Origin: Actinokineospora enzanensis DSM 44649
GTDB taxonomy: Bacteria; Actinomycetota; Actinomycetes; Mycobacteriales; Pseudonocardiaceae
DNA: 64,000 bases
Assembly: GCF_000374445.1 (NCBI RefSeq)
Contig: NZ_KB894431.1
Coordinates: 1-64,000, forward strand
Direction: 5' to 3'
Under the pieces are notes generated by a model. That model saw only the letters and a list, made by a program, of their open reading frames with translations. It made no database searches and was not told the origin of the DNA. Both the position numbers and the translations under genes were made by a program. Of this stretch, positions 16,378 through 62,072 are shown piece by piece (the first letter of the stretch is position 1; each line of letters begins with the position of its first letter).

Positions 16378-16464
16378 CCGGCTTGGGAAAACCTGGGGAT
16401 GCGTGGTCCCCGGACGAAACGCGGTGACGCGTGCTCACTGTCAGTCCGATGTGGAGGTTTGTTC

Positions 16465-46994: not shown

Positions 46995-47003
46995 CGCAGC
47001 CAC

Positions 47004-47972
47004 TCATCCGGTCACCGGGGTGAGCCATTCGGGATGTTCCGACGAGCGGCCGCGCACCACCGACTCGTAGGCCGCGTCGAGCTGTCGGGTGATCGGTCCC
47101 GCTGTCCCGTCGCCGACCCGGAGACCGTCCACTGTGGTCACCGGGAGGATCTCCCAGCCGGTGCCCATGAAGAATATCTCGTCGGCGAGGTACAGCTCAC
47201 TGCGGTCCACCTCGCGCTCCTGTACCGGGTATCCGAGTTCGGTGAGCAGCCGGATCGAGGTGTCCCTGGTGAGGCTGTCCAGGATTCCGCTGGTCAACGA
47301 CGGCGTGGCCACCACACCGTCGCGGACGAGGGCCAGGCAGGCGCCGGGGCCCTCGCTGACCTTGCCGCGGTCGTTGAGCAGGATGGGCCAGTCGTGGCCG
47401 TTCTCCCTGGCCTCGATCATGGCCAGCCTGCCGTTGTGGTAGTTGGAGAACGCCTTGACCCGGGGCGGCATGGCGGCCTCGCTGATGCGTGCCCAGGAAC
47501 TGACCGCGGCCCGACACCCGCGCTCGGTGCCCAGCCCGCTGGTGAACTGCCAGCTGTCCACCACGACCTCGCACTCGACGCCCGCGGGCACCATCTGCTC
47601 CTGGATGATCCCGGCCGGGAACGCCCAGGGGCGCAGGTAGACGTCCTGACGGTAGTTGTTGACACGCAGCACCTCCAGTACGGCCTCGCGCAGTTCCCCC
47701 TGGTCGTGCGGCAAGGTGAGCCGGGCGATGCGGGCCGAGTCGTACAGCCGCTTGAGGTGCTCGTCGAGCCGGAACAGCAGCAGGGTCTCGCCGTCGTGGG
47801 ACAGGTAGGCCTTGATCCCCTCGAACACCGCGGCCACCGAGGCGTGGCCGACCGCGTTGACGTGGACCAACGCGTCCTGCCACGGCACGAGCTTCCCACT
47901 GCGCCACAACCACTCCGGGCGGCGCACGTCGGAACGGACGAGTGAGTCCATGATGGACATCGGACCGGTCAT
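47004..47972 (-). CDS. Class IV (branched-chain type) PLP aminotransferase
   Basis: A 322-residue fold-type IV aminotransferase resembling IlvE. It shows the N-terminal VHVNAVGHASVAAVFEGIKAY, the PLP Lys in PPRVKAFSNYHNGRLAMIEA, KVSEGPGACLALVRDG (phosphate-binding region) and ADEIFFMGTGWEILPVTTVDG. Members transfer amino groups between 2-oxo acids and Glu. As the last gene of an eight-gene operon led by a NeuB-type synthase, it probably aminates a pathway-specific 2-oxo acid rather than serving general branched-chain metabolism. The ATG overlaps the HAD stop (ATGA). Confidence 0.9.
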   Translation of the reverse strand: MTGPMSIMDSLVRSDVRRPEWLWRSGKLVPWQDALVHVNAVGHASVAAVFEGIKAYLSHDGETLLLFRLDEHLKRLYDSARIARLTLPHDQGELREAVLEVLRVNNYRQDVYLRPWAFPAGIIQEQMVPAGVECEVVVDSWQFTSGLGTERGCRAAVSSWARISEAAMPPRVKAFSNYHNGRLAMIEARENGHDWPILLNDRGKVSEGPGACLALVRDGVVATPSLTSGILDSLTRDTSIRLLTELGYPVQEREVDRSELYLADEIFFMGTGWEILPVTTVDGLRVGDGTAGPITRQLDAAYESVVRGRSSEHPEWLTPVTG

Positions 47973-48619
47973 ATCGGGTTCACCTCAGAAAGGTAGCTGT
48001 CCAGACTTTCCAGGACCACGTCCGCGGCACCGAGATCGGTCGCCGAGCCGACCGAGTTGGGCACGGCCACGCAGCGCAGCCCGGCCGCCTTCGCCGCCGC
48101 GACCCCGGTCGGGGAGTCCTCGAAGGCCAGTGCGGCCGTCGCGGCGAGGCCGAGGCGGTCCAGCGCGTACAGGTACAGGTCGGGCGCGGGCTTGTGCACC
48201 GGCACGAGATCACCGGTGACCAGCTCGGCGAAGCGGCCGCGAATGCCGAGCCGGGACAGGTGCGGGCCCACCCAGTCCGCGCCCGAGCTGGAGACGATCA
48301 CGGCGGGCATACCCCGGGCGTCGGCCCACTCCAGCAGGCGGAGCACGCCGGGGCGCGGCGGTTCGGCGGCACACAGTTCCGCCTTGCGGTGACGGCGGTC
48401 CCGCAGCTCGTCGGCGGTGAGCTCGCGGCCGATCAGCCCACCGAGGTGCGCCGCGGCGATGTACTCGCCGCTCGGCCTGCCCGCCATCGCCTGCCATACC
48501 TCGTCCGAGAGTTCGTGCCCGTGCCGTCGGTACACCTCGGCCCAGGAGGCCCTGGCGGCCCGTTCGGTGTCGCAGACCAGGCCGTCGAAGTCCAGCAACA
48601 GCGCCCGGACCTGGCTCAC
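47969..48619 (-). CDS. HAD-superfamily phosphatase (beta-phosphoglucomutase-like)
   Basis: A 216-residue HAD hydrolase: motif I LLLDFDGLVCDTE, motif II VIVSSSG, motif III Lys in PVHKPAPDLYLYAL, motif IV FEDSPTGVAAAKAAG. A helical cap lies between motifs I and II, as in sugar-phosphate phosphatases and mutases. In this operon it would remove phosphate from a sugar or sugar-acid intermediate, for example after the NeuB step. GTG start overlapping the oxidase stop (GTGA). Confidence 0.9.
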   Translation of the reverse strand: MSQVRALLLDFDGLVCDTERAARASWAEVYRRHGHELSDEVWQAMAGRPSGEYIAAAHLGGLIGRELTADELRDRRHRKAELCAAEPPRPGVLRLLEWADARGMPAVIVSSSGADWVGPHLSRLGIRGRFAELVTGDLVPVHKPAPDLYLYALDRLGLAATAALAFEDSPTGVAAAKAAGLRCVAVPNSVGSATDLGAADVVLESLDSYLSEVNPI

Positions 48620-49926
48620 CCGCCCAGCACCCGGCGTAGGTAGTCGCTGGTGAACATGCCCCGCGGGTCCAGTTCGGCGCGCACCGCCTGGAACCGCTGC
48701 CAGCCGGGGTACCGGTCGGCGATCACGTCCCAGGTGGCGGTGTGCGCCTTGCCCCAGTGCGGTCGGCCCTGGTGTTCCCGCAGCACCGCCTCGAACGTGC
48801 GCAGCAGCTCGGTATAGCCGACCGTCCGCGGCACGGTGATGTTGACGAACCCGGTGGTGCGCCCGTGCGCCAGGCTGAGCAGGAAGTCGTCGGCGGCCGC
48901 GAAGCGAACCGTGACCGAGTAGGGAGTCTGCCGACCGAACCGCGTGACGTCCCGCTGCACGGCGGGAACCGCCTCGGCCAGCTCGGTCACCGGCAGCGCG
49001 TACTCCAGGGACAGGAACTTCACCGGCTGCGGGAACGTGAACGCGTCGAAGCTGCGGTCCACGTAGTGCGGCGGGCGGTCCACGGCGAACGGCAGCCGCG
49101 CGGTCATCAGTCCGCGCACCGCGCGCTGGTCCACCCGCCCGGCGAGCCCGGCCAGGGTGCAGCGCACCTCGCCCAGGGTGTTGCCGTACCGGCGCCGGGT
49201 GGCGTCGGCGGACACCGGGTCGTCGGTGCGGTCCAGCTTCAACGTGGACGCGTTCGGCCCGCTCCACGCCTTGAGGCTGAAGGTGGCGTGGTCCGAGCGG
49301 CTCGCCCAGGCAGGCGCGTCCGCCAGGATGGCGGCCAGCGGCTCGCTGCCGCTGACCACCCGCAGCTTGAACCTCGGCACGCACCGCAGGGTCACCGTGG
49401 ACAGGACGCCCAGTGCGCCCAGCGCGGTCCCCGCCGCGAGGAACAGTTCGGGGTCCGAGTCCGCGGCGCACTCACGGATCGTGCCGTCGGCGGTGACCAG
49501 CCGAAGTCCCAGCAGCTGCCCGGTGAACGGCGGGTGCGTGATGCCGCTGCCGTGGTTCCCGGTGGACAGCGCGCCCCCGATCGTCTGCTCGTCCAGCGTG
49601 CCCATGTTGGACAGTGCCAGCCCCACCTTCTCCAGCTCCAGGTTGAGCCGCCGCAGCGAGGTGCCCGCCCGCACGGTCACCGCGGGCGTGTGCCGGTCCA
49701 CCGACACGATCCCGCTATAGCCGGTGAGGTCCAGCAGGACACCGTCGGTGGTGACGATCGGGTTGAAGGAGTGGCCGGTGCCCGCAGTACGCACGGTGTG
49801 CCCGGCGGCGGCCGCCCGTTGCACCGCGCGGACGATGTCCTCCTCGTCCCGCACCACGACCAGCTCCTGCGGCACGCAGCGAGCCGAGCCCGCCCAGTTG
49901 CGCCAGGCCGTGTTCCGACCGCTCAT
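48616..49926 (-). CDS. FAD-linked aldonolactone/alditol-oxidase-like enzyme
   Basis: A 436-residue flavoprotein of the VAO/PCMH fold, close in pattern to L-gulono-1,4-lactone and D-arabinono-1,4-lactone oxidases. The FAD domain has TAGTGHSFNPIV, whose His is the usual covalent FAD site, and LSNMGTLDEQTIGGALSTGN. The C-terminal ALO domain has GRPHWGKAHTATWD and LDPRGMFTSDYLRRVLG. It would oxidise a polyol or lactone hydroxyl using O2. The start overlaps the stop of the RmlD-like gene (ATGA). Its presence argues for a sugar- or polyol-derived intermediate. Confidence 0.9.
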   Translation of the reverse strand: MSGRNTAWRNWAGSARCVPQELVVVRDEEDIVRAVQRAAAAGHTVRTAGTGHSFNPIVTTDGVLLDLTGYSGIVSVDRHTPAVTVRAGTSLRRLNLELEKVGLALSNMGTLDEQTIGGALSTGNHGSGITHPPFTGQLLGLRLVTADGTIRECAADSDPELFLAAGTALGALGVLSTVTLRCVPRFKLRVVSGSEPLAAILADAPAWASRSDHATFSLKAWSGPNASTLKLDRTDDPVSADATRRRYGNTLGEVRCTLAGLAGRVDQRAVRGLMTARLPFAVDRPPHYVDRSFDAFTFPQPVKFLSLEYALPVTELAEAVPAVQRDVTRFGRQTPYSVTVRFAAADDFLLSLAHGRTTGFVNITVPRTVGYTELLRTFEAVLREHQGRPHWGKAHTATWDVIADRYPGWQRFQAVRAELDPRGMFTSDYLRRVLGG

Positions 49927-50831
49927 CCGACCCTCTCCTCCGGCTGCCCGGCTCGGCGCAGCTCCACGCAGTGTCTGGCCACGGCGTCCTGCCAGCTGGG
50001 CATGGTGAGTCCCAGCGCGGCCAGCCGGTCGGTGTTCAGCGCGGACACCTTGGGCCGTCCGCCGACGAACACGGTGTCCGCGAACGCGACCGGCACCGGC
50101 GGATGGTCGGCGTCCAACCTCGCGTCGTAGACCCGCAGCGCGTGCACGCCGAGCTCGTAACGGCTGGCCCGACCCTCGTTGGCCACGTGCACGGTGCCGG
50201 TCGGCATCGGCGCCATGGTGATCAGCTCGATGATCGCCCGGGCCAGATCGACGGTGTAGGTGGGCCTGCTGAGCTGGTCCTCGATCAACGGCTGCCGCTC
50301 GCCGCGCTCGGCCTGCCGGATGGTGGCCAGGACGTCGTCGTTGTTCTCCGCGGCCCCGCCGAACAGCCAGGAGGTGCGCAGCACCAGATGCGCAGGCACG
50401 GTCGCGGCGATCTGCTCACCGGCCAGCTTGGTCAGCCCGTAGACGCTGAGCGGGTTGGGCACGTCGGTCTCGCGGTACCCGTCCGCGGGCGCGTCCACCC
50501 CGTCGAACACGTAGTCGCTGGAGATGTAGACCAGCCCACTGCCGTGCCGCAGGCACCCCTCGGCGACCTGGTGCACCCCGGCCACGTTGACCCGTAACGC
50601 CAGCTCCGGGTCGGTCTGGCAGGCGGCCACGATCGAGACGGCGGCCAGATGCAGCACGAGGTCCGGCCGGAAGGCGTCGATGGACTCGGCGACCGCCGTC
50701 TCGTCGGCGATGTCGAAGTCGGCGACGGACACCCCGAGCACCGGCCAGTCCGCCGTGCGTTCGTCCCGCCGCAACCGGTCGAGCAGTGCCGTGCCGAGAC
50801 TGCCGTCGGCGCCGGTGATGTACAGGCGCAT
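49923..50831 (-). CDS. RmlD-like NAD(P)-dependent sugar reductase
   Basis: A 302-residue extended SDR related to dTDP-4-dehydrorhamnose reductase. It has YITGADGSLGTALLDRL at the N-terminus, LVLHLAAVS, YISSDYVFDG, the catalytic pair in NPLSVYGLTKLAGEQ, and RTSWLFGG. Since the operon has no dTDP-sugar genes, the substrate is probably another keto or aldehyde sugar. A longer frame extends upstream through the RraA gene, but ATG 50831 overlaps the RraA stop (TGATG) and starts the Rossmann motif. Confidence 0.9.
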   Translation of the reverse strand: MRLYITGADGSLGTALLDRLRRDERTADWPVLGVSVADFDIADETAVAESIDAFRPDLVLHLAAVSIVAACQTDPELALRVNVAGVHQVAEGCLRHGSGLVYISSDYVFDGVDAPADGYRETDVPNPLSVYGLTKLAGEQIAATVPAHLVLRTSWLFGGAAENNDDVLATIRQAERGERQPLIEDQLSRPTYTVDLARAIIELITMAPMPTGTVHVANEGRASRYELGVHALRVYDARLDADHPPVPVAFADTVFVGGRPKVSALNTDRLAALGLTMPSWQDAVARHCVELRRAGQPEERVG

Positions 50832-51505
50832 CAGAGGTTCCCGAACTCGGCGCGCAGGTCGGCCGCCGTGGCGCCCGCCTTGATCCGGTCCCGGATCGCG
50901 TTCTCCCGGTCGCACACCTCGCGGGCGGCGGCCAGCACCTGCTCGGCCGACTGCCGGGGCACCACGGCGATGCCGTTCTCGTCGGCCACCACGATGTCGC
51001 CCGGGTTGATCAGCTGACCGCCGAAGGACACCGGCACGTTCACCTGCACCGGCTCGACGCGGTCGTGCACGGCACCCGGGGACTGGCGGGGGACGACAGT
51101 GCGGTACCAGACCGGGAAGCCGATGTCCCGGATCTCGTCGACATCGCGCACCGCGCCGTCCACCAGCGCCCCGGCGATGCCGAACGTGTGCGAGACGGTC
51201 GCGGTGAGCCCGCCCCACATCGCGGTGGTGGCCACTCCGTGACAGGCCATCACCACGACGTCGCCCTCCTGCGCGCGGGCCAGGATCGGCAGCGTGTTCA
51301 CCCAGTCGTCGATCGACAGGTTGATCGTCAGCGCGGGCCCGGCCACCCGCTGTTCGCGCCGGACCACCTGCATGCCACCGATCGCGCCGTGCCTGCGCTG
51401 CGCGTCGGTGACCATGCAGCTCGGGCTGTACTCGGGCAGCAGTGCCCGGAAGCCGTCCACGACCTCCTGCGGCGGGCGCACGAAGTCGTTGTACACGGTG
51501 TCCAT
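50831..51505 (-). CDS. RraA-family aldolase/decarboxylase
   Basis: A 224-residue protein of the RraA/HMG-aldolase fold. It carries the metal-enzyme signature Gly-x20-Arg-Asp-x2-Glu: Gly in MWGGLTATV and the pair in VDGAVRDVDEI. That signature marks divalent-metal class II pyruvate aldolases and oxaloacetate decarboxylases rather than the RNase E inhibitor RraA. The later segment PVSFGGQLINPGDIVVADEN is also conserved. It could cleave or decarboxylate a 2-oxo acid or 4-hydroxy-2-oxo acid in the pathway. ATG 51505 has GAGGAG six bases upstream. Confidence 0.9.
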   Translation of the reverse strand: MDTVYNDFVRPPQEVVDGFRALLPEYSPSCMVTDAQRRHGAIGGMQVVRREQRVAGPALTINLSIDDWVNTLPILARAQEGDVVVMACHGVATTAMWGGLTATVSHTFGIAGALVDGAVRDVDEIRDIGFPVWYRTVVPRQSPGAVHDRVEPVQVNVPVSFGGQLINPGDIVVADENGIAVVPRQSAEQVLAAAREVCDRENAIRDRIKAGATAADLRAEFGNL

Positions 51506-51507
51506 GG

Positions 51508-53421
51508 TCATCTCCTCGGTGATCGTTGCGTGATGTGCGCGGCGAGCGCGGCGGCACTCAGGCCGTGTGCGTCGAGCACCTCGTCCGGTGCCCCACAGGC
51601 GGGCAGTTCGGTCAGGCCGAGCCCGCTGAACGTGGGCAGTCGCGGCAACCCGGATTCCAGCAGGCAGCGGGCGACCAGGTCGGCCTGCCCGCCGCGGGTG
51701 TAGTGGTTCTCCACCACGACAAGATGATCCGCCTCGGCGACCAGCCGGGCCAGCCACTCGGCGTCGACCCGGTTGAGCCAGGGCAGGTTGACCACGGTCA
51801 GGTCGGTGTCCAGCAGCTCGGCCGCGTGCAGCAGCTGGGGGATCACCACCGGGCCCGAGCCGATCGCCACGGTCCGGCCGCCCTGGCGCACGACCCGACC
51901 CCGGCCGAGCACGAGCGGCCCGACCGGCAGCGCCTCGGCCGCTTCCGGGACCGGCGTGCTGACCAGTCGCAGGTAGACACTGTGCGGCGAGTCGGCGCAG
52001 AACTCCACGGCGGCCACGGTCTCCGCGCTGTTGACCGGTTCGAGCACGACCAGGCCGGGGATCGCGCCGACCGCGCTGACGTCGCGGACCGCCTGGTGCG
52101 AGTGACCTGGCGCGGCCGGGAGCAGGCCCGCCAGCGAGCCAACGTAGACGACTTTCCGGTCCTCGGTCGCGTTGGTGTACATCTGCTCGTTGGGCCGTGC
52201 GTGCAGGAAGCAGGAGAACGAGTGCGCGAACGGTATGAGTCCGCGCGCGGCCATACCGCCCGCCATGGACACCATGTCCTGCTCGGCGATCCCGCATTCC
52301 ACGAAGCGGTCCGGGAGTTGCTCCTTGAACGGGATCAACCCGGTGTCCAGGACGAGATCCGCGTCCAGCGCGACGATCCGCTCGTCGACGGCGGCCCGCT
52401 CGGTCAGCGCCCGCCCGTACACCTCGGGCAGCCGCGGCCCCGACGGCCGGGCACCCGGCGTGTGCTCGACCACCGACAGCCGTACCGGATCCGCGCCGTG
52501 CCTGCGCAGGATCGCGTTCACCGAGGCCACCAGCTCCTCGTGCGCTTCGCGGTACGACCCGACATCCGGTGCGCCGCTGTGGAAGCGGTACATCCACTCG
52601 CCCTCGGGCATCGAGGTCGCCGCGAACACCGTCGCCCCGGCGCCCTTCACCGTGTCCGCGATGATCACCGCGGGCCGGGCGCCGAACTCCCGCTCGCGGC
52701 GGGCGAAGGCGGCTGCGAACTCCGGCGCCGAGTTGCCGTCGCAGCGCAGCACCGCCCAGCCGAAGGCGCGGAACTTCGCCTCCAGGTCGCCGAGATCACT
52801 GACGTCCCGGACCCAGGTGTCGGACTGGAGCTTGTTGTGGTCGACGACCACGGTGAGCTCGCCCATCTCCCGGTGCACCGCCCCGGCCAGCGCCTCCCAG
52901 TTCTGGCCCTCCTGCAGCTCCCCGTCCCCGGTGAGCAGGACGACCCGCCGCCGTCGCCCGGTGAGCCGGTCGCCCAGCACGAAACCCTTGGCACGGGAGA
53001 TCCCCATGCCAAGCGAACCGGTGTTGGCGTGCATGTGCGGGGTGCGCACGTCCGGGTGCCCCGGCAGGCCGCCCAGCCTGCGCAGCCGGTGCAGGTCCGC
53101 CTCGGGCAGCTGTCCGAGCGCGATCAGCGCGGCGTAGAGGCTGGGCGCGTCGTGCCCCTTGGAGGAGAAGTAGATGTCGCCGTCCGGGGCGAACGGCTCG
53201 TCCAGTCCCTCCAGCAGCAGCCAGGACACGATGTCGGCGGCGCTGAAGCTGGAGCCGATGTGCCCGGACCCGGCTCGCATCACGCTGTAGAGGGTGTTGA
53301 CGCGCACGGCGTCGGCGAACGCGCGGCACCGGTCGTGCCGGTCGGGCAGCGCCAGGATCGGCGCGAACGCCGTCGTCGGCACGAAGCCCAGCCGGACGGT
53401 GCCGCCGGGGGAGAGAGTCAT
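51508..53421 (-). CDS. Transketolase-like TPP enzyme, single chain
   Basis: A 637-residue TPP enzyme with both halves in one chain. The N-terminal half has GSGHIGSSFSAADI, SSKGHDAPSLYAAL, the TPP motif GDGELQEGQNWEAL and VVDHNKLQSD. The pyrimidine-domain half has the catalytic Glu in FVECGIAEQDMVSMAGG, then HSFSCFLHARPNEQ. The order suits the transketolase/DXS-like enzymes found in sugar and natural-product clusters. It would move a two-carbon unit between a ketose and an aldehyde, making a sugar backbone. ATG 53421 (GTGGAGA upstream) is preferred to an upstream frame. It lies 25 bp after the SDR gene. Confidence 0.92.
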   Translation of the reverse strand: MTLSPGGTVRLGFVPTTAFAPILALPDRHDRCRAFADAVRVNTLYSVMRAGSGHIGSSFSAADIVSWLLLEGLDEPFAPDGDIYFSSKGHDAPSLYAALIALGQLPEADLHRLRRLGGLPGHPDVRTPHMHANTGSLGMGISRAKGFVLGDRLTGRRRRVVLLTGDGELQEGQNWEALAGAVHREMGELTVVVDHNKLQSDTWVRDVSDLGDLEAKFRAFGWAVLRCDGNSAPEFAAAFARREREFGARPAVIIADTVKGAGATVFAATSMPEGEWMYRFHSGAPDVGSYREAHEELVASVNAILRRHGADPVRLSVVEHTPGARPSGPRLPEVYGRALTERAAVDERIVALDADLVLDTGLIPFKEQLPDRFVECGIAEQDMVSMAGGMAARGLIPFAHSFSCFLHARPNEQMYTNATEDRKVVYVGSLAGLLPAAPGHSHQAVRDVSAVGAIPGLVVLEPVNSAETVAAVEFCADSPHSVYLRLVSTPVPEAAEALPVGPLVLGRGRVVRQGGRTVAIGSGPVVIPQLLHAAELLDTDLTVVNLPWLNRVDAEWLARLVAEADHLVVVENHYTRGGQADLVARCLLESGLPRLPTFSGLGLTELPACGAPDEVLDAHGLSAAALAAHITQRSPRR

Positions 53422-53446
53422 TGTGTCTCCACGGGAAGTCGCGGGC

Positions 53447-54250
53447 TCACCAGCAGACATAGCCACCGTCGACCATCAGCTCGGTGCCGGTGACGTAGCT
53501 GCTCAGGTCCGAGGCGAGGAACAGCAGCGGGCCGGTCAGGTCGGCGGGCAGCGCCATCCGCCGCAGCGGCACCCGGTCGGTGAACTTGGCGCGGAATCGC
53601 TCGTCCTGACCGCCGAGGACCCCGCCGGGGGACAGCGTGTTCACGCGCAGCCCGAGCGGGCCCCACAGGGCGGCCAGGTACCTGGTCAGCGCGGCCACCC
53701 CGGCCTTGGACATGCCGTAGGCGGGCGGCTTGAGGAACGGCGGGTCCACCGGGAGGTGCTCGTACAGCCGGGGGTCCGGCGCCATGCCCGCGTAGAGCGA
53801 GCCGATGTTGATGACCGACCCGGTGCCCCGGCGGGCCATCTCCGCGCCGAACACCTGGCACATCCGCAGCGTGCCCAGCGCGTTGACCTCCAGCACCGCT
53901 CCGGAGACCTCGTCCGGGATGTCGTCGAAGCGCCAGCTGCCACCGGTGGCCGACGGGGGCGAGTCGATGCCCGCGTTGTTGACCAGAACGGCGGGTGCGC
54001 CGACCCGGCCGAGGCACTCGGCCAGTGCCGCGCGCACGCTCGCCCGGTCGGTGACGTCGGCCCGCAGCAGGTGGAACCGGGTCGCGTCGTGCTCGCCGAG
54101 CACCTCGCCGAGCGCGGCGGGGATCTCCTCGGCCAGGTCGATGCCGACCACCTCGGCGCCCGCGCCAAGCAGCGCCTCGGTCCACACCGGACCGAGGCGC
54201 CCCAGCACCCCGGTCACCACGGCGACCCGGCCGTCCAGACTGATCCGCAT
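53447..54250 (-). CDS. SDR-family oxidoreductase in the NeuB operon
   Basis: A 267-residue classical SDR: cofactor motif VTGVLGRLGPVWTEAL, VLVNNAGIDSPPSATGG, VINIGSLYAGMAPD, catalytic pair in PAYGMSKAGVAAL, and a C-terminal GTELMVDGGYVCW. The IxSLYAG and YGMSK pattern resembles the SDRs that sit next to NeuB homologues in nonulosonate-type gene clusters (for example PtmA-like proteins); I recall this link and could not check it. Its ATG overlaps the NeuB stop (TGATG), so their products are probably made in fixed ratio. Confidence 0.9.
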   Translation of the reverse strand: MRISLDGRVAVVTGVLGRLGPVWTEALLGAGAEVVGIDLAEEIPAALGEVLGEHDATRFHLLRADVTDRASVRAALAECLGRVGAPAVLVNNAGIDSPPSATGGSWRFDDIPDEVSGAVLEVNALGTLRMCQVFGAEMARRGTGSVINIGSLYAGMAPDPRLYEHLPVDPPFLKPPAYGMSKAGVAALTRYLAALWGPLGLRVNTLSPGGVLGGQDERFRAKFTDRVPLRRMALPADLTGPLLFLASDLSSYVTGTELMVDGGYVCW

Positions 54251-55302
54251 CAGCCGAGACCGTCGAGCCGGATGTCCGCGTCGGCGGCCAGCGCGGCCAC
54301 CAGCGGGCGGCCGAGCACCTGCGGCAGCAGGTGCGGGCGCAGACCGTCACCCGGGGACTTGATCGCCACGTCGGCCTCGGTGAGCACGTGCCCGGCGGGC
54401 AGGTCCCGGGCCGCCACGAGCTTCTTGGCCATCTTGCGCATCGCGGGCAGCTCCTCGGTCAGGTGCCGCTTGACCGGCGAGCCCAGGCTGAGCCGGGTGC
54501 GGGCCAGGCCGTCCACCAGCGCGCTGAGATGCTGTGCCTCCAGCGAGAAGTGGTGGTCGCTGCCGGGCCGGGCCCGGTCCAGTGTGACGTGCTTCTCCAC
54601 CACCCTGGCGCCGAGCGCGTAGGCGACCCAGCTGGACTCGACCTCCAGGTCGTGTGCCGAGAAACCCGCGACGACGCCGTCGAACTCGCGGCGGAATGTG
54701 TCGATGACCGACAGGTTGAGCTGTTCCGGGGTGGCCGGGTAGACGGCCGTGCACTGGAGAAGCGCGAGCTGTCGATTGATCGGGAGAATGGTGTCGACGG
54801 CGCGCCGGACATCATCCATGTCGGCGCCGCCGGTGCTCACGATCAATGGTTTACCGGCGGCCGCCGCATAGGTGAGCAGCGGCGTGTTCGTGAGATCACC
54901 GGACGCCATTTTGATCGCCGGGACGTCGAGATCGACGAGGAAGTCGACGCTGTCCCTGTCGAATGCGGTGGAAAAGAAGTCGATGCCCAGCTCGGCGGCC
55001 AGGCCGGTCAGGTGGACGTACTCCGCGCGGCCGAACTCAAGTGTTTCCCGGTGCTTGCCGTAGGTGGGGCCGAAGCTGTTGCGGCCCACGTAGGGCTCGT
55101 CGAACATGTGCCGGGTGAACAGTGTCCGGTTGCTGCGTTTCTGCAGCTTGACCGCGCTGGCGCCGGCCTTGGCGGCCATGTGGAAGAGCTCCTCGGCGCG
55201 CGCCAGCTCGCCCTCGTGGTTGTGCCCGATCTCGGCGATCACATATGCATCGGAGTAATCGTCGACGATGCGGTCGCCAATGACGATTTTACGCTCGGAC
55301 AT
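54250..55302 (-). CDS. NeuB-family synthase (PEP plus aldose condensation)
   Basis: A 350-residue sialic-acid-synthase-type enzyme. Members join phosphoenolpyruvate with an aldose to give a 3-deoxy-2-keto acid. The TIM barrel (about 1-265) shows YVIAEIGHNHEGELARAEEL, AVKLQKRSNRTLFTRHMF, DFFSTAFDRDSVDFL, KMASGDLTNTPLL, CTAVYPATPEQLN and EKHVTLDRARPGSDHHFSLE. The C-terminal 65 residues form a SAF/antifreeze-like domain (LPAGHVLTEADVAIKSPGDG). No CMP-sugar synthetase or glycosyltransferase is present, so the product is probably not for glycan decoration. First gene of the leftward operon; GGGGAGGA precedes the ATG. Confidence 0.93.
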   Translation of the reverse strand: MSERKIVIGDRIVDDYSDAYVIAEIGHNHEGELARAEELFHMAAKAGASAVKLQKRSNRTLFTRHMFDEPYVGRNSFGPTYGKHRETLEFGRAEYVHLTGLAAELGIDFFSTAFDRDSVDFLVDLDVPAIKMASGDLTNTPLLTYAAAAGKPLIVSTGGADMDDVRRAVDTILPINRQLALLQCTAVYPATPEQLNLSVIDTFRREFDGVVAGFSAHDLEVESSWVAYALGARVVEKHVTLDRARPGSDHHFSLEAQHLSALVDGLARTRLSLGSPVKRHLTEELPAMRKMAKKLVAARDLPAGHVLTEADVAIKSPGDGLRPHLLPQVLGRPLVAALAADADIRLDGLG

Positions 55303-55679
55303 AGTAGGGCAATCCTCCCCAGATCGCACTGAAAATGAACGCGAAAGGTTGACCCGGCGGGTTCGGGCCCGTCGGGTCTCGCGCAGCCGAGTCGCTGCTT
55401 TGATGTATTGAAAGCCTACCCTCCCCCTGAGTGCTAGGCTAGCATGCAGTTTGCCGGTGAACGCGGTCTTTGTCCAGAGGCTTGAGTCCGGAGGCTCGCA
55501 GTCGAGGGGTCATGCAAAGGCCATCGTGTTGCCTGGACCGCACTACGGTCCTTTGAAAGGGCGGCGCGGGCGTTCGTCCGCCCCCAAGGCGGGTCTCCGT
55601 TTACTCCGAGCGGGCTAGACGTTTTTCCGAACGGGCTAGCGGCGAGCCGCTCTCGACGTCGAAGGAACCACGGAACGTA
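55303..55679. promoter_or_regulatory. Divergent promoter region of the NeuB / ATP-grasp cluster
   Basis: 377 bp between the two gene sets. It holds a 13-bp inverted repeat TGCTAG-G-CTAGCA (55432-55444), a 6-bp hairpin GGACCG-CACTA-CGGTCC near 55535, a GGGCGG...CCGCCC stem just after it (about 55559-55585), and two direct repeats CCGA(G/A)CGGGCTAG at 55606-55618 and 55627-55639, 21 bp apart. Direct repeats at two helical turns are typical of activator sites (for example SARP-type). No regulator gene is in the cluster, so control may come from elsewhere. Confidence 0.6.
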
Positions 55680-56942
55680 ATGAGTGTCGTACTGCTGCAC
55701 ACCACGAACCCGAGCCGCCGTCCGCACGTGACGCGGGTGCGGGACTACTGCCGCGCGCACGGCGAGCGGCTGCTGATCGTGATGAAGGACCCGACCTGGG
55801 AGGTCGACTTCGCCGACCGTGTGGTGTCCGCCGACACCACGAGCATCGAGCAGACGCTGACCGCGGTACGCGCGCTGGCCGCGCAGGAGCGCGAGCCGGT
55901 GCGCGGGGTGCTGACGTTCGTCGAGCAGAGCGTGCCCGCCGCCGCGGCCGTGGCCGCCGAGCTGGGACTGCCCTGTGTCGACGAACGGGCGGCCTACCTG
56001 GCCAGGGACAAGTTCGCGATGCGGTCGGCCTTCGCCGCGGTCGGGCTGGACCAGCCGCGGTTCGAGCTGGCCGCGAGCCTGGCGCAGGCACGCGAGGTGG
56101 CGACCCGCGTCGGATACCCGCTGATCCTCAAACCGTTGATCGGCGCGGGGAGCAAGTACGTGCGCCGGGTCGACGGCGACGCCGAGCTGGCCGAGCACTT
56201 CGACGCGATCCGCCGCGGCGCCTGGGACGGGTTCAGCCACGACCCGCTGTACGAGCGCACGGCGGAGCGATACGACCGGGCAATCCTGCTTGAGGAGTAC
56301 ATTCCGGGCAGCGAGATCAGCGTCGAGTCCGTGGTGCGCGCGGGACGGACCGAGGTACTCGCGGTGCACGACAAGCCGTTGCCCATGGAAGGACCGTTCT
56401 TCTACGAGGTCTACTTCAGCACGCCGAGCAGGCTGCCCGCCGAGCTCGTGCGGCGGATCGGCGAGGCCACCGCCGCCGCCAACTCCGCGCTGGGGATCGG
56501 TATCGGCGCCACGCACACCGAGTTCCGGGTCACTGCGGCGGGCCGCGCGGTGATCCTGGAGACGGCGGCCAGGCTCGGTGGGGCGGCGGTCTACCAGTCG
56601 GTGCTGCGGAGCACCGGTGTGGACATGGTCACGGTGCTGCTGGACCTGGCCACCGGCCGGGACACCGATCTGACCGTGCGGGACTCGCCGACGCCGACCG
56701 GTTTCTACCGGATCTACGCCGAGCGGGCCGGGGAGCTGGCGCGGTTCCACGGCGTCGAGCGCTACGAGCAGGACCCGCGGGTCAGCGAGATCGCGCTCTA
56801 CCACGGGGTCGGGGACCGTATCCTGATCGCCCCGCAGCTGTCCGGCGCGCACGGGCACGTGGTGTTCTCCGCCGCCGGTATGGACGATCTCGACGAGGTC
56901 TGTGCCGAACTGCGCCGCGAGATCCGGGTGGAGGTGCGATGA
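55680..56942 (+). CDS. ATP-grasp ligase 1
   Basis: 420 residues. An N-terminal small-domain region (SVVLLHTTNPSRRPHVTRV) precedes an ATP-grasp fold: DKFAMRSAFAAVGLDQPRF, YPLILKPLIGAGSKYVRRV (nucleotide Lys and Gly loop), LLEEYIPGSEISVESVV, and the metal segment VILETAARLGGAAVYQSVL. Similar proteins form amide bonds by activating a carboxylate as an acyl phosphate (L-amino-acid ligases, biotin-carboxylase relatives). The metal motif reads E-T-A-A-R rather than E-x-N-x-R. First rightward gene; its stop overlaps the next ATG (ATGA). Confidence 0.88.
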   Translation: MSVVLLHTTNPSRRPHVTRVRDYCRAHGERLLIVMKDPTWEVDFADRVVSADTTSIEQTLTAVRALAAQEREPVRGVLTFVEQSVPAAAAVAAELGLPCVDERAAYLARDKFAMRSAFAAVGLDQPRFELAASLAQAREVATRVGYPLILKPLIGAGSKYVRRVDGDAELAEHFDAIRRGAWDGFSHDPLYERTAERYDRAILLEEYIPGSEISVESVVRAGRTEVLAVHDKPLPMEGPFFYEVYFSTPSRLPAELVRRIGEATAAANSALGIGIGATHTEFRVTAAGRAVILETAARLGGAAVYQSVLRSTGVDMVTVLLDLATGRDTDLTVRDSPTPTGFYRIYAERAGELARFHGVERYEQDPRVSEIALYHGVGDRILIAPQLSGAHGHVVFSAAGMDDLDEVCAELRREIRVEVR

Positions 56943-58153
56943 GGTACCTGGTGCTCAACCGCACGCCGCTGGCCGACCGGCACTTTCCGGCCTGGCTCGG
57001 CGAGGACAACCGGGCGGTGCTGATCACCGCGGCCGACGCGGTGTCGGACCCCGCGCAGCTGGCAGGCTACGAGCACACCACCGTGCTGGACGACTTCCAC
57101 TTCAACCCGGCGGTGGAGCTGGCGGCGCTGCGCCTGCACGAGCGGTTCGGCTTCGACCGGGTCATCTCGCTGTCCGAATTCGACCTGCTTCGGGCGGCTC
57201 GGCTGCGCGAGCTGTTCGGCGTGCCCGGCCAGGACGTGGCAGGCGCGCGGGCGTTCCGGGACAAGTTGTGGATGAAGGAACTTCTCGGTGCGGCAGGTAT
57301 TCCGTTGGTGCCTTTCGCCCCTGTCGCACACCTCGCGGATGTGCTCGGTTTCATCGACCGACACGGCTACCCGGTGGTGGTGAAACCGCGCCGTGGCGGT
57401 GGTTCCGAGGGCGTGCACGTGCTGCGTGACGAGACCGAGCTGCTCGGCTATGTCGCGGAGACCCGTGAACTGGGCACGGACGACGGCGCCCAGTTGCTTG
57501 TGGAGTCCTACCTTGAGCACGAGCTGTTCCACGTGGATGGGATCACCGTGCGTGGCGAGGTGCGGCTGATGTGGCCGTCCTCACAGGGCACGACCTCCTG
57601 CCTGGACCTGCTCGGCGGGACGGCCCTGCGCAGCGCCCTGCTGGATCCCGACGACCCGCTTCTGGGACCATTGCGCGAGTTGACCGGTCGCGCTCTCGCC
57701 GTGCTGCCCACGCCGGAGATCTCCATGTTCCACGCCGAGGTGTTCCACAGTGAACGGCATGGCCTGGTGTTCAACGAGATCGCCTGCAGAATGGGCGGCG
57801 GAATGATCGAGTGGATGTTGCGGCGCGGGTTCGGCATCACGCTGCCCGAGGTGTACGTACGAGCGCTCGCGGACAATTCGCCACCGGAATTCGACCCGGT
57901 CCCGATCGAACAGGCCGGGCTGGCGCTCGTCCCGCCGCGACCCGGAATGCTGATGAGCATTCCGGCCGAGTGCCCGACGGCCGGGATCGTCGACTACCGG
58001 CCCGGCGCCGAGGTGGGGACCCGGCTGGCCGCGCCGCGCAACAGCATGGACAAGATCGCGTTCCTGTTGGCAGCCGGTTCCACCCGGGTCGAGGTGGAGA
58101 AGTCGTTGGACGGCGCAGTGGACTGGTTCCAGCGCACCGTGGAGATCGGGTAG
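56939..58153 (+). CDS. ATP-grasp ligase 2
   Basis: 404 residues. The N-terminal region (MRYLVLNRTPLADRHFPAWL) differs from ligase 1. The ATP-grasp core shows RDKLWMKELLGAAGIPLVPF, HGYPVVVKPRRGGGSEGVHV, LLVESYLEHELFHVDGITV and the metal segment VFNEIACRMGGGMIEWML. It resembles carboxylate-amine ligases of secondary metabolism more than purine or cell-wall enzymes. Low similarity to its neighbours means it probably makes a different bond. It overlaps ligase 1 and is followed by 23 bp before ligase 3. Confidence 0.88.
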   Translation: MRYLVLNRTPLADRHFPAWLGEDNRAVLITAADAVSDPAQLAGYEHTTVLDDFHFNPAVELAALRLHERFGFDRVISLSEFDLLRAARLRELFGVPGQDVAGARAFRDKLWMKELLGAAGIPLVPFAPVAHLADVLGFIDRHGYPVVVKPRRGGGSEGVHVLRDETELLGYVAETRELGTDDGAQLLVESYLEHELFHVDGITVRGEVRLMWPSSQGTTSCLDLLGGTALRSALLDPDDPLLGPLRELTGRALAVLPTPEISMFHAEVFHSERHGLVFNEIACRMGGGMIEWMLRRGFGITLPEVYVRALADNSPPEFDPVPIEQAGLALVPPRPGMLMSIPAECPTAGIVDYRPGAEVGTRLAAPRNSMDKIAFLLAAGSTRVEVEKSLDGAVDWFQRTVEIG

Positions 58154-58176
58154 CGCCCGGACAGATTGGATCACCA

Positions 58177-59439
58177 GTGCAGTCCATGCCAGACGGTCCG
58201 ATGCACCTGCTGGTGCTCGGCGACGAGCGCGAGATCATCGAGTTCGCCCGCACACTGCGCACCGAGCTGCGCACCTCGGTGCTGTGCCTGCCCGCCGACG
58301 CGCGCAAGCACCCGAAGACCGAGGAACACCGCAGGGTGTTCGTGCTCCCCGAGGGCACGCCGCTCGCGGAGTGGGTGGCGGTCGGGCGGTTCATCCACGA
58401 GCGGGAGCCGGTCGACGGCATCGTCTGCTTCAACGAGACCGGCCAGGAGGCCGCCGCCGCGATCGCGGCCGCGCTCGGCCTGCCCTGGCACCCGCCGGAC
58501 ACGGTGCGGGCGGTCGACGACAAGCGCCTGATGCGCGAACGCCTCGCCGAGCACGGGGTCGACCGCACCGGCTACCTGGACTCGCCGACGCCGGAGCAGA
58601 TCGTGGCCTTCGCCGAGCGCGTGGGCTACCCGCTGATCTGCAAGCCCGTCGACGGGGTCGGCAGCCACGGCGTGGTACGCCTCGACCGCGCCGAGGACAT
58701 CGCAGCGTGTCTGGACCGGGCGCGCTCGGGGGCGGTGGAACTGGGCGGCAGCAAGGTGATGGTGGAGAAGTTCCACGTGGGCGAGGAGTTCAGCGTCGAG
58801 AGCTTCAGCGAGGACGGCGAGCACCTTCCCCTGTGCATCACCAAGAAGTATTTGCTTCCCGGCACCTTTGTGGAACTGGGACACGTGCTGCCCGCGCCGG
58901 TGAGCGAGCAACGCGCGGAGCGGATCGGCGCGGCGGTCGTCGCCGCGCTGACCGCGCTGGGGATCCGCCACGGCGTCACGCACACCGAGGTCATCGCCAC
59001 CGAGGACGGGGTGCACATCGTCGAGACGCACCTGCGGCAGGGCGGCGACCGCATCCCGTACCTGCTGGCAGGCGCCCGCGAGGTGGACATCGTGCCCGCG
59101 CTGGCGCGGCAGTCCCTCGGCCTGCCCGCGCTGGAGGACCTGCGCGGCCAGGTGGACAAGGCCGCGACGGGTCGGTACGCGGCGATCTGGTACGCCACAC
59201 CGGACACCACCGGCAAGATCACCGAGGTGTGCGGCGAGCAGGAGGCCCGGGACCGGCCCGGTGTGCGCGAGGTGACGGTTCGCAAGAGCGCGGGGGACTT
59301 CCTGTCCGGCATCACCTCCTCCAGCGCGCGCCCCGCCTGGGTCTGGGCTGTCGGCGACACCGCCGAGGAGGCGCTGGCCACCGCGCAGCAGGCCGTGCGC
59401 GCGGTGCGGTTCGTGGTCGGTGAGTCCGATGCTGACTGA
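58177..59439 (+). CDS. ATP-grasp ligase 3
   Basis: About 420 residues. It starts MHLLVLGDEREIIEFARTLR after a short lead. The core has DKRLMRERLAEHGVDRTGYL, YPLICKPVDGVGSHGVVRLD, MVEKFHVGEEFSVESFSEDG and the metal segment VHIVETHLRQGGDRIPYLL. The E-x-H-x-R form of the metal motif is seen in L-amino-acid ligases of the BacD type. GTG 58177 is the longest sensible start; ATG 58186 and ATG 58201 are alternatives. Its stop overlaps the transporter gene. It may complete a peptide or amide chain begun by ligases 1 and 2. Confidence 0.88.
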   Translation: MQSMPDGPMHLLVLGDEREIIEFARTLRTELRTSVLCLPADARKHPKTEEHRRVFVLPEGTPLAEWVAVGRFIHEREPVDGIVCFNETGQEAAAAIAAALGLPWHPPDTVRAVDDKRLMRERLAEHGVDRTGYLDSPTPEQIVAFAERVGYPLICKPVDGVGSHGVVRLDRAEDIAACLDRARSGAVELGGSKVMVEKFHVGEEFSVESFSEDGEHLPLCITKKYLLPGTFVELGHVLPAPVSEQRAERIGAAVVAALTALGIRHGVTHTEVIATEDGVHIVETHLRQGGDRIPYLLAGAREVDIVPALARQSLGLPALEDLRGQVDKAATGRYAAIWYATPDTTGKITEVCGEQEARDRPGVREVTVRKSAGDFLSGITSSSARPAWVWAVGDTAEEALATAQQAVRAVRFVVGESDAD

Positions 59440-60679
59440 GAAGCTGACCGGTGCGGTGCGGCGCTCGGCGGACTCGCTGCGCGCGAGCAGCCGTTCGGAG
59501 CGCATCCTGGTGTTCAGCTGCCTGGCTGACTCGTTGGGGTCCGGTCTCTTCCTGGCGATCGGCGCGGCGTTCTTCACCCGTATGGGCAGTCTGGAGGCGG
59601 CCCAGTACGCGCTCGGCCTGTCGGTGGCCGGGCTGGTCGGGTTCGTGCTCACCATCCCGATGGGACTGCTCGGCGACCGGTTCGGCGCGCGCCGCACACT
59701 GATCTGCCTGAACCTGTGGCGGGCGGTCGGATACTCCTGTTACGCACTGGCGGGCACGTTCACCACCTTCATCATCGTGGTGGTGTTCACCGCGATCGCC
59801 GACCGGACCGCGGGCGCCATCGGCCAGGCCGTGGTGGCCGACGTGGCCGACCAGGACCGTCGGATCGGGCTGCTGGCCGTGATCAGGTCGGTGCGCAACA
59901 TCGGGTACGCCTCGGGCGGGCTGGTCGCCGGGTTCGCGATCACGGCGAACAGTCGCCCGGTGTACTACTCGGCGATCGCCATGGTGGCCCTGTTCTACGT
60001 GATCTGCGCGGGCATGCTGACCCGGGTGCGATCCGCCCCGGACGCGGTCGGAGCCGTGCGAACCAGGCGCGAGTGGGCGTTCAAGGACCGGCGCTACCTC
60101 GCGTTCACCGCGCTCAACACCGTGCTGAGCCTGCACGTCACGACACTGAACGTGTTGCTGCCACTGTGGATCCTGGCCAACCCGACGATCCCGCCCGGGT
60201 TCGCCGCCACCCCGCTGATCGTCAACACGATCATCGTGTCACTGCTGCAGTTCCCGGCCACCAGACGCATCACCACGATCAGCGCGGCCGGGCGGGCGGC
60301 CTTCGCCGCCGCGGTGCTGCTGGCGGCCGCGTGCGTGCTGTTCCTCGCCGCCTCCTGGCTGTCGGTCGCCACCTACGCGGTGATCGTGGTGCTGGGCGGG
60401 GCCCTGCTGCTGACGGTGGCGGAGATGTGGCAGGCCGCGTCGTCCTGGCAGATCTCGATGGACCTGGCACCGGACCACAGCCGTTCGCAGTATCTGGCGA
60501 CGTTCAGCCTGAGCACGACGGCGGAACGGGTGGTCGGTCCGGCCGGGCTCACCGTGCTCGTACTGACCGTGCGCCCGTGGGGCTGGCTCCTGCTCGGGAT
60601 CGTCGTCCTGCTCGCCGGACTGGCCACCCTCCGACTGGCCCGTCGCGTGCCCGCGGAGCCTTTGCGGGTGGCGTCGTAG
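59420..60679 (+). CDS. MFS transporter A of the ATP-grasp cluster
   Basis: A 419-residue major facilitator with about 12 helices. It shows FSCLADSLGSGLFLAIGAAF (helix 1), motif A as MGLLGDRFGARRTL, and the mid-loop FKDRRYLAFTALNTVLSLHV leading into helix 7. It probably exports the cluster product or a late intermediate. The GTG at 59420 lies inside the end of ligase 3; ATG 59429 is an alternative. It is related to transporter B downstream (both have FKD-R then a long helix ending LPLW). Confidence 0.9.
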   Translation: MSPMLTEKLTGAVRRSADSLRASSRSERILVFSCLADSLGSGLFLAIGAAFFTRMGSLEAAQYALGLSVAGLVGFVLTIPMGLLGDRFGARRTLICLNLWRAVGYSCYALAGTFTTFIIVVVFTAIADRTAGAIGQAVVADVADQDRRIGLLAVIRSVRNIGYASGGLVAGFAITANSRPVYYSAIAMVALFYVICAGMLTRVRSAPDAVGAVRTRREWAFKDRRYLAFTALNTVLSLHVTTLNVLLPLWILANPTIPPGFAATPLIVNTIIVSLLQFPATRRITTISAAGRAAFAAAVLLAAACVLFLAASWLSVATYAVIVVLGGALLLTVAEMWQAASSWQISMDLAPDHSRSQYLATFSLSTTAERVVGPAGLTVLVLTVRPWGWLLLGIVVLLAGLATLRLARRVPAEPLRVAS

Positions 60680-60759
60680 AGGACCATTGGACCGTGTCCG
60701 GTCGGTGCTCGGGTCGGCCAGGATGAACTCGAAATGATCACGACACGCTGGGGGATCGC

Positions 60760-61989
60760 TTGTCGAGAATCGTGGATGAGTTGCACGGCCGTGGAGAACG
60801 CATGCTGGCGGCGGCCATGGCGGTGCTGTTTCTGGGCACGGGACTGTCGTATTCGCTACTCGCCCTGTACTGCATCCGACATCTCGGACTGAGTCCGGTC
60901 GCCTACGGTGCCGGGATGAGTGTCGCGGCGCTGCTCGGCATCGCTTCCGGGCCGGTGATGGGCATGTTGGCGGACCGGGTCGACGGTCACCGGCTGTACG
61001 CCATCCTGGTGTGGTCGATGTGTGCGGCCACCGCGACCGTCATCGTCGCTCCGGGCTGGTTGGCTCTGATCTTGCTGAGTGTGCTCACGATCTGTGGCCG
61101 GGGGAGTGCTGCGGTGATCGGCGCACTGATCGGGCGTTCGGTGCCCAAGGAGCGCCGGATCCGGTATCGCGCGGTCGTCAAGTCCCTGAGCAACTCCACC
61201 ATGCTGATCGGCTTGGGCTTGGGTGCACTCGTCCTGGCCGACGGCTCCAGGCCTGCTTTCCGGTTCGGGTTCGCGGCCGAGGCACTCACCTTCGTCGTGG
61301 CAGGTCTGTTGGTCTGGCTGTCGACGTCGGCCGAGTCGGCGGAGCAGGCGCAAAAGGCGACAAGGCCGGAGCACGCTGGACGGTCCCGTCTCGTGGTCTT
61401 CAAGGACGTCAGATTCACCGCGCTCACCATCGTGAACGGCGTCCTGACGCTCTCCGAATTCATGCTCACCATCGCTCTGCCATTGTGGGTCTCCACCCGG
61501 ATGCACGCTCCACTGTGGATCGTGTCGGTCGCCGTGGTCAGCTACACCGTCGGAATCACGATTCTCCAGATCCCCGCATCCCGCCGCGTGAACGACATGC
61601 ACTCCTCGGTGCGCGCCGGGCGGCGTGGCGGCTTGCTGTTCGCTGTCGCGGCAGCGCTGTTCCCTGTGATGGGAGCGGTGTCCGGTATACCTCTGGCGGT
61701 CGGTGTCGTCGTGCTGCTGGCGTTGGTCATCGTGGCGGGCGAGGTCTGCTACACGGCGGGCTCGTGGGGGCTCGTCTACGCATTGGCGCCGGAGGAGTCG
61801 CTCGGGCAGTACCAAGGATTCTTCAACACCGGCTTCGACCTGAGCATGATGTTCGGTCCGGCACTGTTCGCCTGGCTGGCCGGCGCGCAGGGCATGCTCG
61901 GCTGGGGTGTGTTGGCGACGGTCTTCCTCGTCACCGCGCTACTGATCACCCCGCTCGGCACACGCGGCACGGCCAACGCTACGAACTGA
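60760..61989 (+). CDS. MFS transporter B of the ATP-grasp cluster
   Basis: A 409-residue major facilitator. Helix 1 reads MAVLFLGTGLSYSLLALYCI, motif A is MGMLADRVDGHRLY, and the mid-loop FKDVRFTALTIVNGVLTLSE matches transporter A in position. TTG start with GGGGGA just upstream, and 80 bp after transporter A, so it may have its own promoter. Two related pumps together suggest separate export of product and precursor, or export plus self-protection. It ends at a strong hairpin. Confidence 0.9.
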   Translation: MSRIVDELHGRGERMLAAAMAVLFLGTGLSYSLLALYCIRHLGLSPVAYGAGMSVAALLGIASGPVMGMLADRVDGHRLYAILVWSMCAATATVIVAPGWLALILLSVLTICGRGSAAVIGALIGRSVPKERRIRYRAVVKSLSNSTMLIGLGLGALVLADGSRPAFRFGFAAEALTFVVAGLLVWLSTSAESAEQAQKATRPEHAGRSRLVVFKDVRFTALTIVNGVLTLSEFMLTIALPLWVSTRMHAPLWIVSVAVVSYTVGITILQIPASRRVNDMHSSVRAGRRGGLLFAVAAALFPVMGAVSGIPLAVGVVVLLALVIVAGEVCYTAGSWGLVYALAPEESLGQYQGFFNTGFDLSMMFGPALFAWLAGAQGMLGWGVLATVFLVTALLITPLGTRGTANATN

Positions 61990-62021
61990 GCCCGATCTCG
62001 GACCGCGCATGCGCCGCGGGA

Positions 62022-62050
62022 AGGTCCACACGGCCCAGCCGTGTGGACCT
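62022..62050. terminator. Bidirectional hairpin terminator at the cluster's right end
   Basis: A perfect 13-bp stem (62022-62034 with 62038-62050, AGGTCCACACGGC) with a 3-nt loop lies 32 bp after transporter B and 23 bp after the convergent small gene's stop. It marks the right boundary of the ATP-grasp cluster. Confidence 0.88.
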
Positions 62051-62072
62051 CCGGTCCAGCAGCGACACGCTA

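Follow-up and report, generated by a model that had tools for sequence, protein, structure and literature searches.

A divergent gene cluster in Actinokineospora enzanensis that may build a sugar-derived amino acid, join it into a short peptide and export it

What might a set of thirteen genes make when eight of them resemble a route to sugar acids and the other five encode ligases and pumps? The question is raised by positions 47,004–61,989 of the window, by which we mean the whole 64,000-nucleotide stretch analysed here, positions 1 to 64,000 of contig NZ_KB894431.1 of Actinokineospora enzanensis DSM 44649. An initial annotation had named thirteen genes and their families in this region, and the open reading frame (ORF) map together with Pfam and NCBIfam scans bears them out. 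Eight minus-strand genes, which overlap or nearly touch one another, form the left arm and five plus-strand genes form the right arm. From the gap between the arms outward, the left arm encodes a NeuB-type synthase, a short-chain dehydrogenase/reductase (SDR), a transketolase-like enzyme (TK), an RraA-like protein, an RmlD-like reductase, an alditol/lactone oxidase-like enzyme (ALO), a HAD-type phosphatase and a class IV aminotransferase (AT); the right arm encodes three ATP-grasp ligases (AG1, AG2 and AG3) and two MFS transporters (MFS1 and MFS2). We think it probable, at roughly 0.58, that these genes form a specialised-metabolite cluster, in which a transferable eight-gene cassette would make a sugar-derived amino acid, here called X, for ligase-made short peptides that are then exported.

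The synthase beside the gap belongs to the NeuB family and falls in a clade of its own. Of 397 sampled genomes from the order, 85 contain a match at E ≤ 1e-30, but an identity of 64% is reached only by the window and three further genomes; identities inside the clade are 64–70%, against at most 43% for the remaining matches in the order. In structure alignments the protein keeps the residues aligned with those of the Neisseria meningitidis enzyme that we take to be catalytic. Its SAF domain has Ser at the position of Arg314 of that enzyme, which is altered in 4ipi and 4ipj and presumably has a role in N-acetylneuraminate synthase. No Arg occupies this column in any of 47 clade rows, two of which are duplicate records. 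(L and G numbers denote loci and genomes of our searches; L033 and L047 are a single record, as are L037 and L055.) Among 38 outgroup rows, the column is a gap in 14 and Arg in 20 of the remaining 24. The curated equivalogs for N-acetylneuraminate and pseudaminate synthases are both failed, at 275.1 against a cut-off of 399.65 (TIGR03569) and 222 against 340.25 (TIGR03586).

These features bear on whether the locus could make a sialic-acid-like sugar (a nonulosonic acid) for the cell surface. A NeuB with SAF domain and catalytic residues is what sialic, legionaminic and pseudaminic acid pathways (NeuB/PseI) possess, and relatives of the synthase in Proteobacteria, Acidobacteria and other groups have aldehyde dehydrogenase and cytidylyltransferase-like genes for neighbours. 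The window differs in its failed equivalogs and in Ser for Arg314, and no CMP (cytidine monophosphate)-sugar synthetase, other cytidylyltransferase or glycosyltransferase family is listed for the 13 genes, which encode ligases and pumps instead. A surface-sugar pathway is very improbable here, and we rejected it for the window on the missing Arg314 and CMP-sugar synthetase; related sets elsewhere fit it. The original label of a NeuB-type sugar-acid pathway accordingly holds for the family and not for the sialic-acid subtype. A second, ordinary NeuB is encoded elsewhere in the same genome (G000:C13:64657-65490; 41% identity to the clade protein).

TK likewise combines kept catalytic positions with altered ones. 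It shares three domains and the catalytic His and Glu with the family of transketolases, split transketolases and 1-deoxy-D-xylulose-5-phosphate (DXP) synthases, and differs at three further positions. With residue numbers mapped from an alignment to human transketolase, all 30 clade rows keep H37, H77, H110 and E366, which we take to be cofactor or catalytic residues, and all have Asp, Leu and Pro in place of S345, H416 and D424, presumably substrate-grip residues. The wider family does not share these replacements as a rule: among nine control relatives at 30–34% identity, the majority of which have a stop separating two subunits, S345 is kept in seven, H416 in five and D424 in seven. A closer relative, in genome G574 (44–47% identity; L134 and L145), has Asp, Tyr and Pro at these positions. 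Glycosyltransferase-like genes lie near it, by eye. As for the arginines that we assume bind phosphate in the human enzyme, R318 falls in an alignment gap against the window protein, and the R474 column holds no Arg in the 30 clade rows or the nine controls. The controls have an Arg a few places earlier, by eye, and the column is loosely aligned, which weakened the claim that Arg474 had been lost; the outline of the proposed pathway is independent of it.

The eight genes recur as a unit in other genomes. A scan of genome contigs confirmed 471 loci, of which the best 80 were kept, and more exist. The NeuB clade was taken as L038–L079 (42 loci), the weakest member of which, L076 (42%), overlaps the first outgroup loci (40–42%) in identity and not in E-value. 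Within these best 80 loci, all eight left-arm genes occur at 13 of the 42 clade loci, and L035 and L144 bring the number of additional full cassettes to at least 15; in each the genes are collinear, lie on one strand and span 8,051–8,907 bases, so the left arm is more than a product of chance. The positions examined as catalytic are unchanged in all other cassettes covered by the alignment (14 or 15 of 15). At E ≤ 1e-100, TK is found in three of the 397 genomes of the order (the window's, G065 and G327), each with the cassette. In a phylum sample of 396 genomes it has matches at E ≤ 1e-60 in 46, where only the window, G570 (65%) and G574 (47%) exceed 37% identity; G570 has an AG1-type ligase as well as a full cassette. 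Within the genus, an SDR match at E ≤ 1e-60 is absent from all 15 further genomes.

Protein distances within the cassette point the same way. Those of NeuB correlate with those of each of the other seven (r 0.56–0.78; Mantel p 0.002, 499 permutations, n = 14–15), and 27 of the 28 pairs of cassette proteins correlate at p ≤ 0.004 (14–15 loci). AG1 distances, available for 8–9 loci, correlate with seven of the eight (p ≤ 0.016), the exception being SDR (r 0.14, p 0.208). Such correlations fit inheritance as a unit; species history alone could give part of them, no housekeeping gene having been compared.

Are the two arms, then, parts of one system? The nearest relative, L039 in Streptomyces sp. 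NBC_01306 (G785), holds 12 of the 13 genes: all eight of the left arm, AG1 (64% identity), AG2 (61%), AG3 (59%) and MFS1 (61%), no separate orthologue of MFS2 being seen at that locus. Its left-arm proteins are also close to those of the window (RraA 80%, AT 79–80%, RmlD 75–77%), whereas RraA and RmlD of the other full cassettes reach at most 65%. One extra gene at L039 resembles a CDP (cytidine diphosphate)-alcohol transferase by eye, and polyketide synthase (PKS) genes flank one side of the cluster, at a distance of about 8 kb. An AG1-type ligase (49–64% identity) stands near 11 of the 15 other full cassettes, or 12 of 16 with the window included; those at L043 and L050 are cut by the end of the stretch. 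The initial annotation had allowed that homologues of the two arms might never occur together; because L039 holds 12 of the 13 genes, this is not the case.

A sugar-acid operon and a ligase/efflux operon might nonetheless be unrelated clusters that meet at the gap by chance. AG1-type ligases do occur without the cassette in two of the 397 genomes of the order (G118 and G346, where the order-sample searches gave no TK or NeuB match), and four of the 16 cassettes (L041, L049, L051 and L053) have no AG1 in the stretch fetched, which at one locus is only 15.3 kb. Yet L039, in a distant genus, shows the same pair of arms, complete with the three ligases and MFS1. At E ≤ 1e-60, moreover, AG1 is found in five genomes of the order, namely the three with TK and cassette plus G118 and G346; with the window excluded, both TK genomes are among four AG1 genomes of 396, for which our own arithmetic gives a chance of about 8e-5. 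A chance meeting of two clusters is thus improbable.

Beyond the ligases, the companions of the cassette differ between loci. A quinone-oxidoreductase-like gene lies beside 10 of the 14 other full cassettes that were clustered, and at L144 by eye; an aldo/keto reductase gene lies beside 11 of the 14, and at L144. Neither was seen at L039 or, by tblastn, in the window. An ATP-grasp-like companion at L047 has no Pfam match. Elsewhere the companions are glutamate mutase, class III aminotransferase or 4-hydroxyphenylglycine genes, assigned mostly by eye. Glutamate mutase genes lie near an AG1-type ligase at L050 (MutE by Pfam), L043 and L131 (by similarity or by eye); L053 has glutamate mutase with the cassette and no AG1 seen, and the genome of L131 gave no NeuB or TK match in the order sample. 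We rejected reading the structure of X from neighbouring genes, since these differ from locus to locus.

The ligases themselves are of the amino-acid-ligase type and are predicted from their sequences to form peptide bonds. All three carry the LAL_C2 domain in Pfam (an ATP-grasp_4 match of AG2 lies below the cut-off), and the nearest solved relatives are 3vot (BL00235) and BacD for AG1, 3vot for AG3 and 4wd3, an L-amino acid ligase, for AG2. The earlier proposal of joining through amide bonds is supported as far as the kind of ligase goes. The curated BacD model NF053745 (cut-off 850) is failed by each, at 75.6, 23 and 31.8 bits for AG1, AG2 and AG3.

Two described kinds of pathway invite comparison. 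Bacilysin-type dipeptide clusters (BacD, BL00235) are alike in ligase family and in the logic of an unusual amino acid, a ligase and an exporter. The bacilysin precursor anticapsin is made via the prephenate route, whereas in the window the amino acid would come from the NeuB/TK cassette, and there are three ligases, not one. Vazabitide- and ficellomycin-type pathways, which work on an amino-group carrier, contain transketolase and ATP-grasp enzymes, as here. The LysW-like carrier ends in Glu-Asp/Glu-Trp-Gly-Glu/Asp; no carrier-like C-terminus is encoded on either strand in 46,001–62,600, and this reading was rejected.

The remaining left-arm enzymes are described here by their nearest solved relatives, family models and kept residues. 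The nearest solved relative of SDR is 6uh2, and its Ser-Tyr-Lys is kept in 15 of 15 other full cassettes, as are Tyr-Lys of RmlD (nearest dTDP-4-dehydrorhamnose reductases), Arg120-Asp121 of RraA (nearest 3noj, a 4-carboxy-4-hydroxy-2-oxoadipate aldolase/oxaloacetate decarboxylase) and the Lys of AT, which we take to be the pyridoxal phosphate (PLP) lysine. ALO is nearest to 8ot8 and to xylitol oxidase 2vfr, and narrower beta-phosphoglucomutase-like and hexitol phosphatase models match HAD below their cut-offs.

From gene content and order, conservation, the catalytic residues kept, the substrate-grip residues lost and the co-occurrence of ligases, all established directly, we infer the following chemistry. 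TK would move a two-carbon ketol unit to give a short polyhydroxy carbonyl compound, which SDR, RmlD, the phosphatase and ALO would adjust (by reducing a ketone to an alcohol, removing phosphate and oxidising an alcohol to an aldehyde). NeuB would add three carbons from phosphoenolpyruvate (PEP) to yield a 2-keto-3-deoxy acid, RraA may trim or decarboxylate an intermediate, and AT would convert the 2-keto acid to an alpha-amino acid. The three ligases would then form peptide bonds using ATP, up to three of them, and the MFS pumps would export the peptide. The order of these steps is a guess, and unlikely to be right as written.

The cassette might instead make a polyhydroxy acid or an aminated polyol rather than an alpha-amino acid, with the class IV enzyme acting in nitrogen supply or in some side reaction while the ligases join ordinary amino acids to a carboxyl group of the sugar acid. 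It would suit this alternative that AT passes branched-chain-transaminase models, that amino-acid ligases can accept varied acids, and that L045, L048 and L118 lack the class IV aminotransferase and ALO and have, by eye, a class III aminotransferase after HAD, so that the six core genes would be of use without the class IV enzyme. Nevertheless, AT is the last of the eight genes, with its lysine kept, in 15 of 15 other cassettes, and it is retained in a reduced set of Micromonospora rosaria. We regard the alternative as unlikely, though a serious contender.

Reduced and variant cassettes show how the genes travel. Sets of NeuB-SDR-TK-RraA-RmlD-HAD occur at L045, L048, L078 and L118 (at L078 a 40% aminotransferase lies further off). 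At L045, L048 and L118, with their class III aminotransferase, the same carbon skeleton may thus be aminated at a different position. L118 (NZ_CP108509.1, 801760-842746) is on a 1.6-Mb linear Streptomyces plasmid, with nonribosomal peptide synthetase (NRPS) and 4-hydroxyphenylglycine-type genes nearby by eye; PLSDB lists no genes in that stretch. Across the plasmid collection, NeuB has matches at E ≤ 1e-40 in 37 records, and only NBC_01237 exceeds 60% identity, being also the only TK match at E ≤ 1e-100. The M. rosaria set (L056) is NeuB-SDR-TK-RraA-AT, without RmlD, ALO and HAD, and NRPS genes adjoin it by eye. Reduced cassettes beside NRPS genes, as at L056 and L118, fit a peptide building block. 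Smaller sets exist: NeuB and HAD only at L055 and L052 (the latter also with a 31% SDR 7 kb away), and NeuB alone at L044 and others. An aldolase-like gene of another type lies beside NeuB at L037/L055 and L052, by eye, which suggests that a pyruvate-type lyase or decarboxylase step belongs with the clade NeuB. L052 (Streptomyces coacervatus) also contains, by eye, a DegT-type aminotransferase and the end of a dehydroquinate-synthase-like cyclase, which together would suit an aminocyclitol.

In other phyla (Proteobacteria, Acidobacteria, Planctomycetes and Myxococcota), relatives of the same NeuB, SDR and TK lie close together in a different setting, aldehyde dehydrogenase and cytidylyltransferase-like genes replacing RraA, RmlD, ALO, HAD, AT and the ligases. 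This holds for L057, L059, L060, L061, L066, L068, L070, L071 and L075, assigned by similarity clusters and, for the pair at L071 only, by Pfam; at L062 the cytidylyltransferase-like gene stands apart.

Several of these observations weigh against a cluster for a peptide of X. A CMP-sugar is the likelier product where a cytidylyltransferase-like gene accompanies NeuB, SDR and TK, and since gene content varies, different loci may yield different end products. The TK replacements reach beyond the NeuB-linked set, as G574 shares two of the three and the 19.9 kb retrieved there contains no NeuB match. The AG1-type ligases of G118 and G346, which lack the cassette, mean that such a ligase is not proof of X, and the four cassettes with no AG1 in the stretch fetched tell the same way. 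The distances of SDR and RraA correlate only weakly (r 0.19, p 0.088), and the distance comparison as a whole has no housekeeping-gene control. Both models that AT passes above cut-off describe branched-chain transaminases, which lends no support to an unusual substrate and leaves room for an ordinary one. The least secure part of the proposed chemistry is RraA, which could play several roles.

A peptide cluster built on X nevertheless remains our preferred interpretation, and a broader proposal can be made from it, tentatively and at somewhat less than even odds. The cassette may be a portable, general route to carbohydrate-derived alpha-amino acids, in which ketol transfer by a TK of altered grip is combined with PEP condensation by a NeuB that does not fit N-acetylmannosamine (ManNAc). 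Such a route would feed ligase-made peptides and nonribosomal peptides and, in reduced form, CMP-activated surface sugars. The view that no described product class matches the set has so far held up: we found no gene-for-gene description of the cassette in the open-access literature, a search that extended to few subscription journals and not to MIBiG. Each enzyme family is known; what we rate as new is a building-block cassette within a ligase-made kind of peptide cluster.

If the proposal is correct, a family of small peptides from Streptomyces, Micromonospora, Actinomadura, Amycolatopsis, Nonomuraea and Pseudonocardiaceae would be recognisable by this cassette. Several of the clusters concerned have no NRPS or PKS genes of their own, and may therefore have been overlooked by searches based on such genes; the 8.1–8.9 kb cassette would offer a genetic hook for finding more producers. 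It would also provide two enzymes of altered substrate use, a NeuB without Arg314 and a TK with replaced grip residues.

A further question is where the cluster ends. To its left, at 24,171–45,377, lies a catecholate-siderophore-like NRPS cluster that the initial annotation had overlooked, with, by eye, a dehydrogenase, isochorismate-type enzymes, an AMP ligase, a carrier protein, iron uptake genes, an NRPS and an exporter. The NRPS gene (33,692–43,888; 3,398 residues) ends 3.1 kb left of the set, with a Condensation domain in Pfam, which was run on that end of the siderophore-like cluster only. The reported lack of NRPS, PKS, glycosyltransferase and CMP-sugar synthetase genes thus stands for the 13 genes, whose listed matches include no such family (for SDR and the three ligases, the best 25 families each in the narrower scans), and fails for the surroundings. 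The cassette could conceivably supply part of this siderophore, making both one cluster, given that they adjoin and that reduced cassettes stand beside NRPS genes elsewhere. Two small genes, however, separate the siderophore-like cluster from AT, and its last gene is its own exporter by eye. As the closest relative, L039, has nothing like it in the stretches read, it looks like a separate neighbour, and a single joint cluster is improbable too.

The coordinates of the set are collected in table 1. Start codons of several of the 13 genes vary by 1 to 17 codons between ORF readings, and the family scans of AG3 used the frame read from 58171.

Table 1. The thirteen genes and the region between the arms, with coordinates in the window and the family matches behind each name.
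Feature	Position	Strand	Basis
Class IV aminotransferase (AT), branched-chain-aminotransferase type	47004..47972	-	PF01063; NF005146 and TIGR01122 above cut-off
HAD-type sugar/alditol phosphatase	47969..48619	-	PF00702, PF13419; TIGR01509 above cut-off
FAD alditol/lactone oxidase-like enzyme (ALO)	48616..49926	-	PF04030 and PF01565; TIGR01679 above cut-off
RmlD-like reductase	49923..50831	-	PF04321; TIGR01214 just below cut-off
RraA-like aldolase/decarboxylase	50831..51505	-	PF03737
Transketolase-like thiamine diphosphate (ThDP) enzyme (TK), several usual substrate-grip residues absent	51508..53460	-	PF00456, PF02779, PF02780
Short-chain dehydrogenase/reductase (SDR)	53447..54250	-	PF13561
NeuB-type PEP-condensing synthase, separate clade, KSPGDG replacing KRPGxG	54250..55302	-	PF03102 and PF08666 (SAF)
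Divergent intergenic region between the arms	55303..55679	.	ORF map
ATP-grasp amino-acid ligase AG1	55680..56942	+	PF13535 and LAL_C2
ATP-grasp amino-acid ligase AG2	56939..58153	+	LAL_C2, CPSase_L_D2 and GARS_A above cut-off
ATP-grasp amino-acid ligase AG3	58201..59439	+	LAL_C2 and PF13535; ATG at 58201
MFS transporter 1 (MFS1)	59420..60679	+	PF07690
MFS transporter 2 (MFS2)	60760..61989	+	PF07690; start is TTG at 60760 or ATG at 60802

The gap between the arms measures 350–377 bp: the longer value applies with the NeuB ATG, and it is 27 bp shorter with a GTG at 55,329. A promoter scan of the gap found no promoter-like site, so the shared divergent promoter named in the initial annotation is putative; terminator-like sites occurred only at chance level, Rfam gave no match at gathering score over 40,000–64,000, and the 64-kb window has no tRNA genes. 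Upstream of AG1 lies a 14-nucleotide direct repeat (55,605–55,618 and 55,626–55,639) with one mismatch and 21 bases from start to start; it may be a regulator site, though chance is also possible. Farther to the left, neighbouring genes of about 690 codons at 14308-16377 and 16459-18531 have near-identical product starts and the look of PIG-L-type deacetylases, by eye a tandem duplication.

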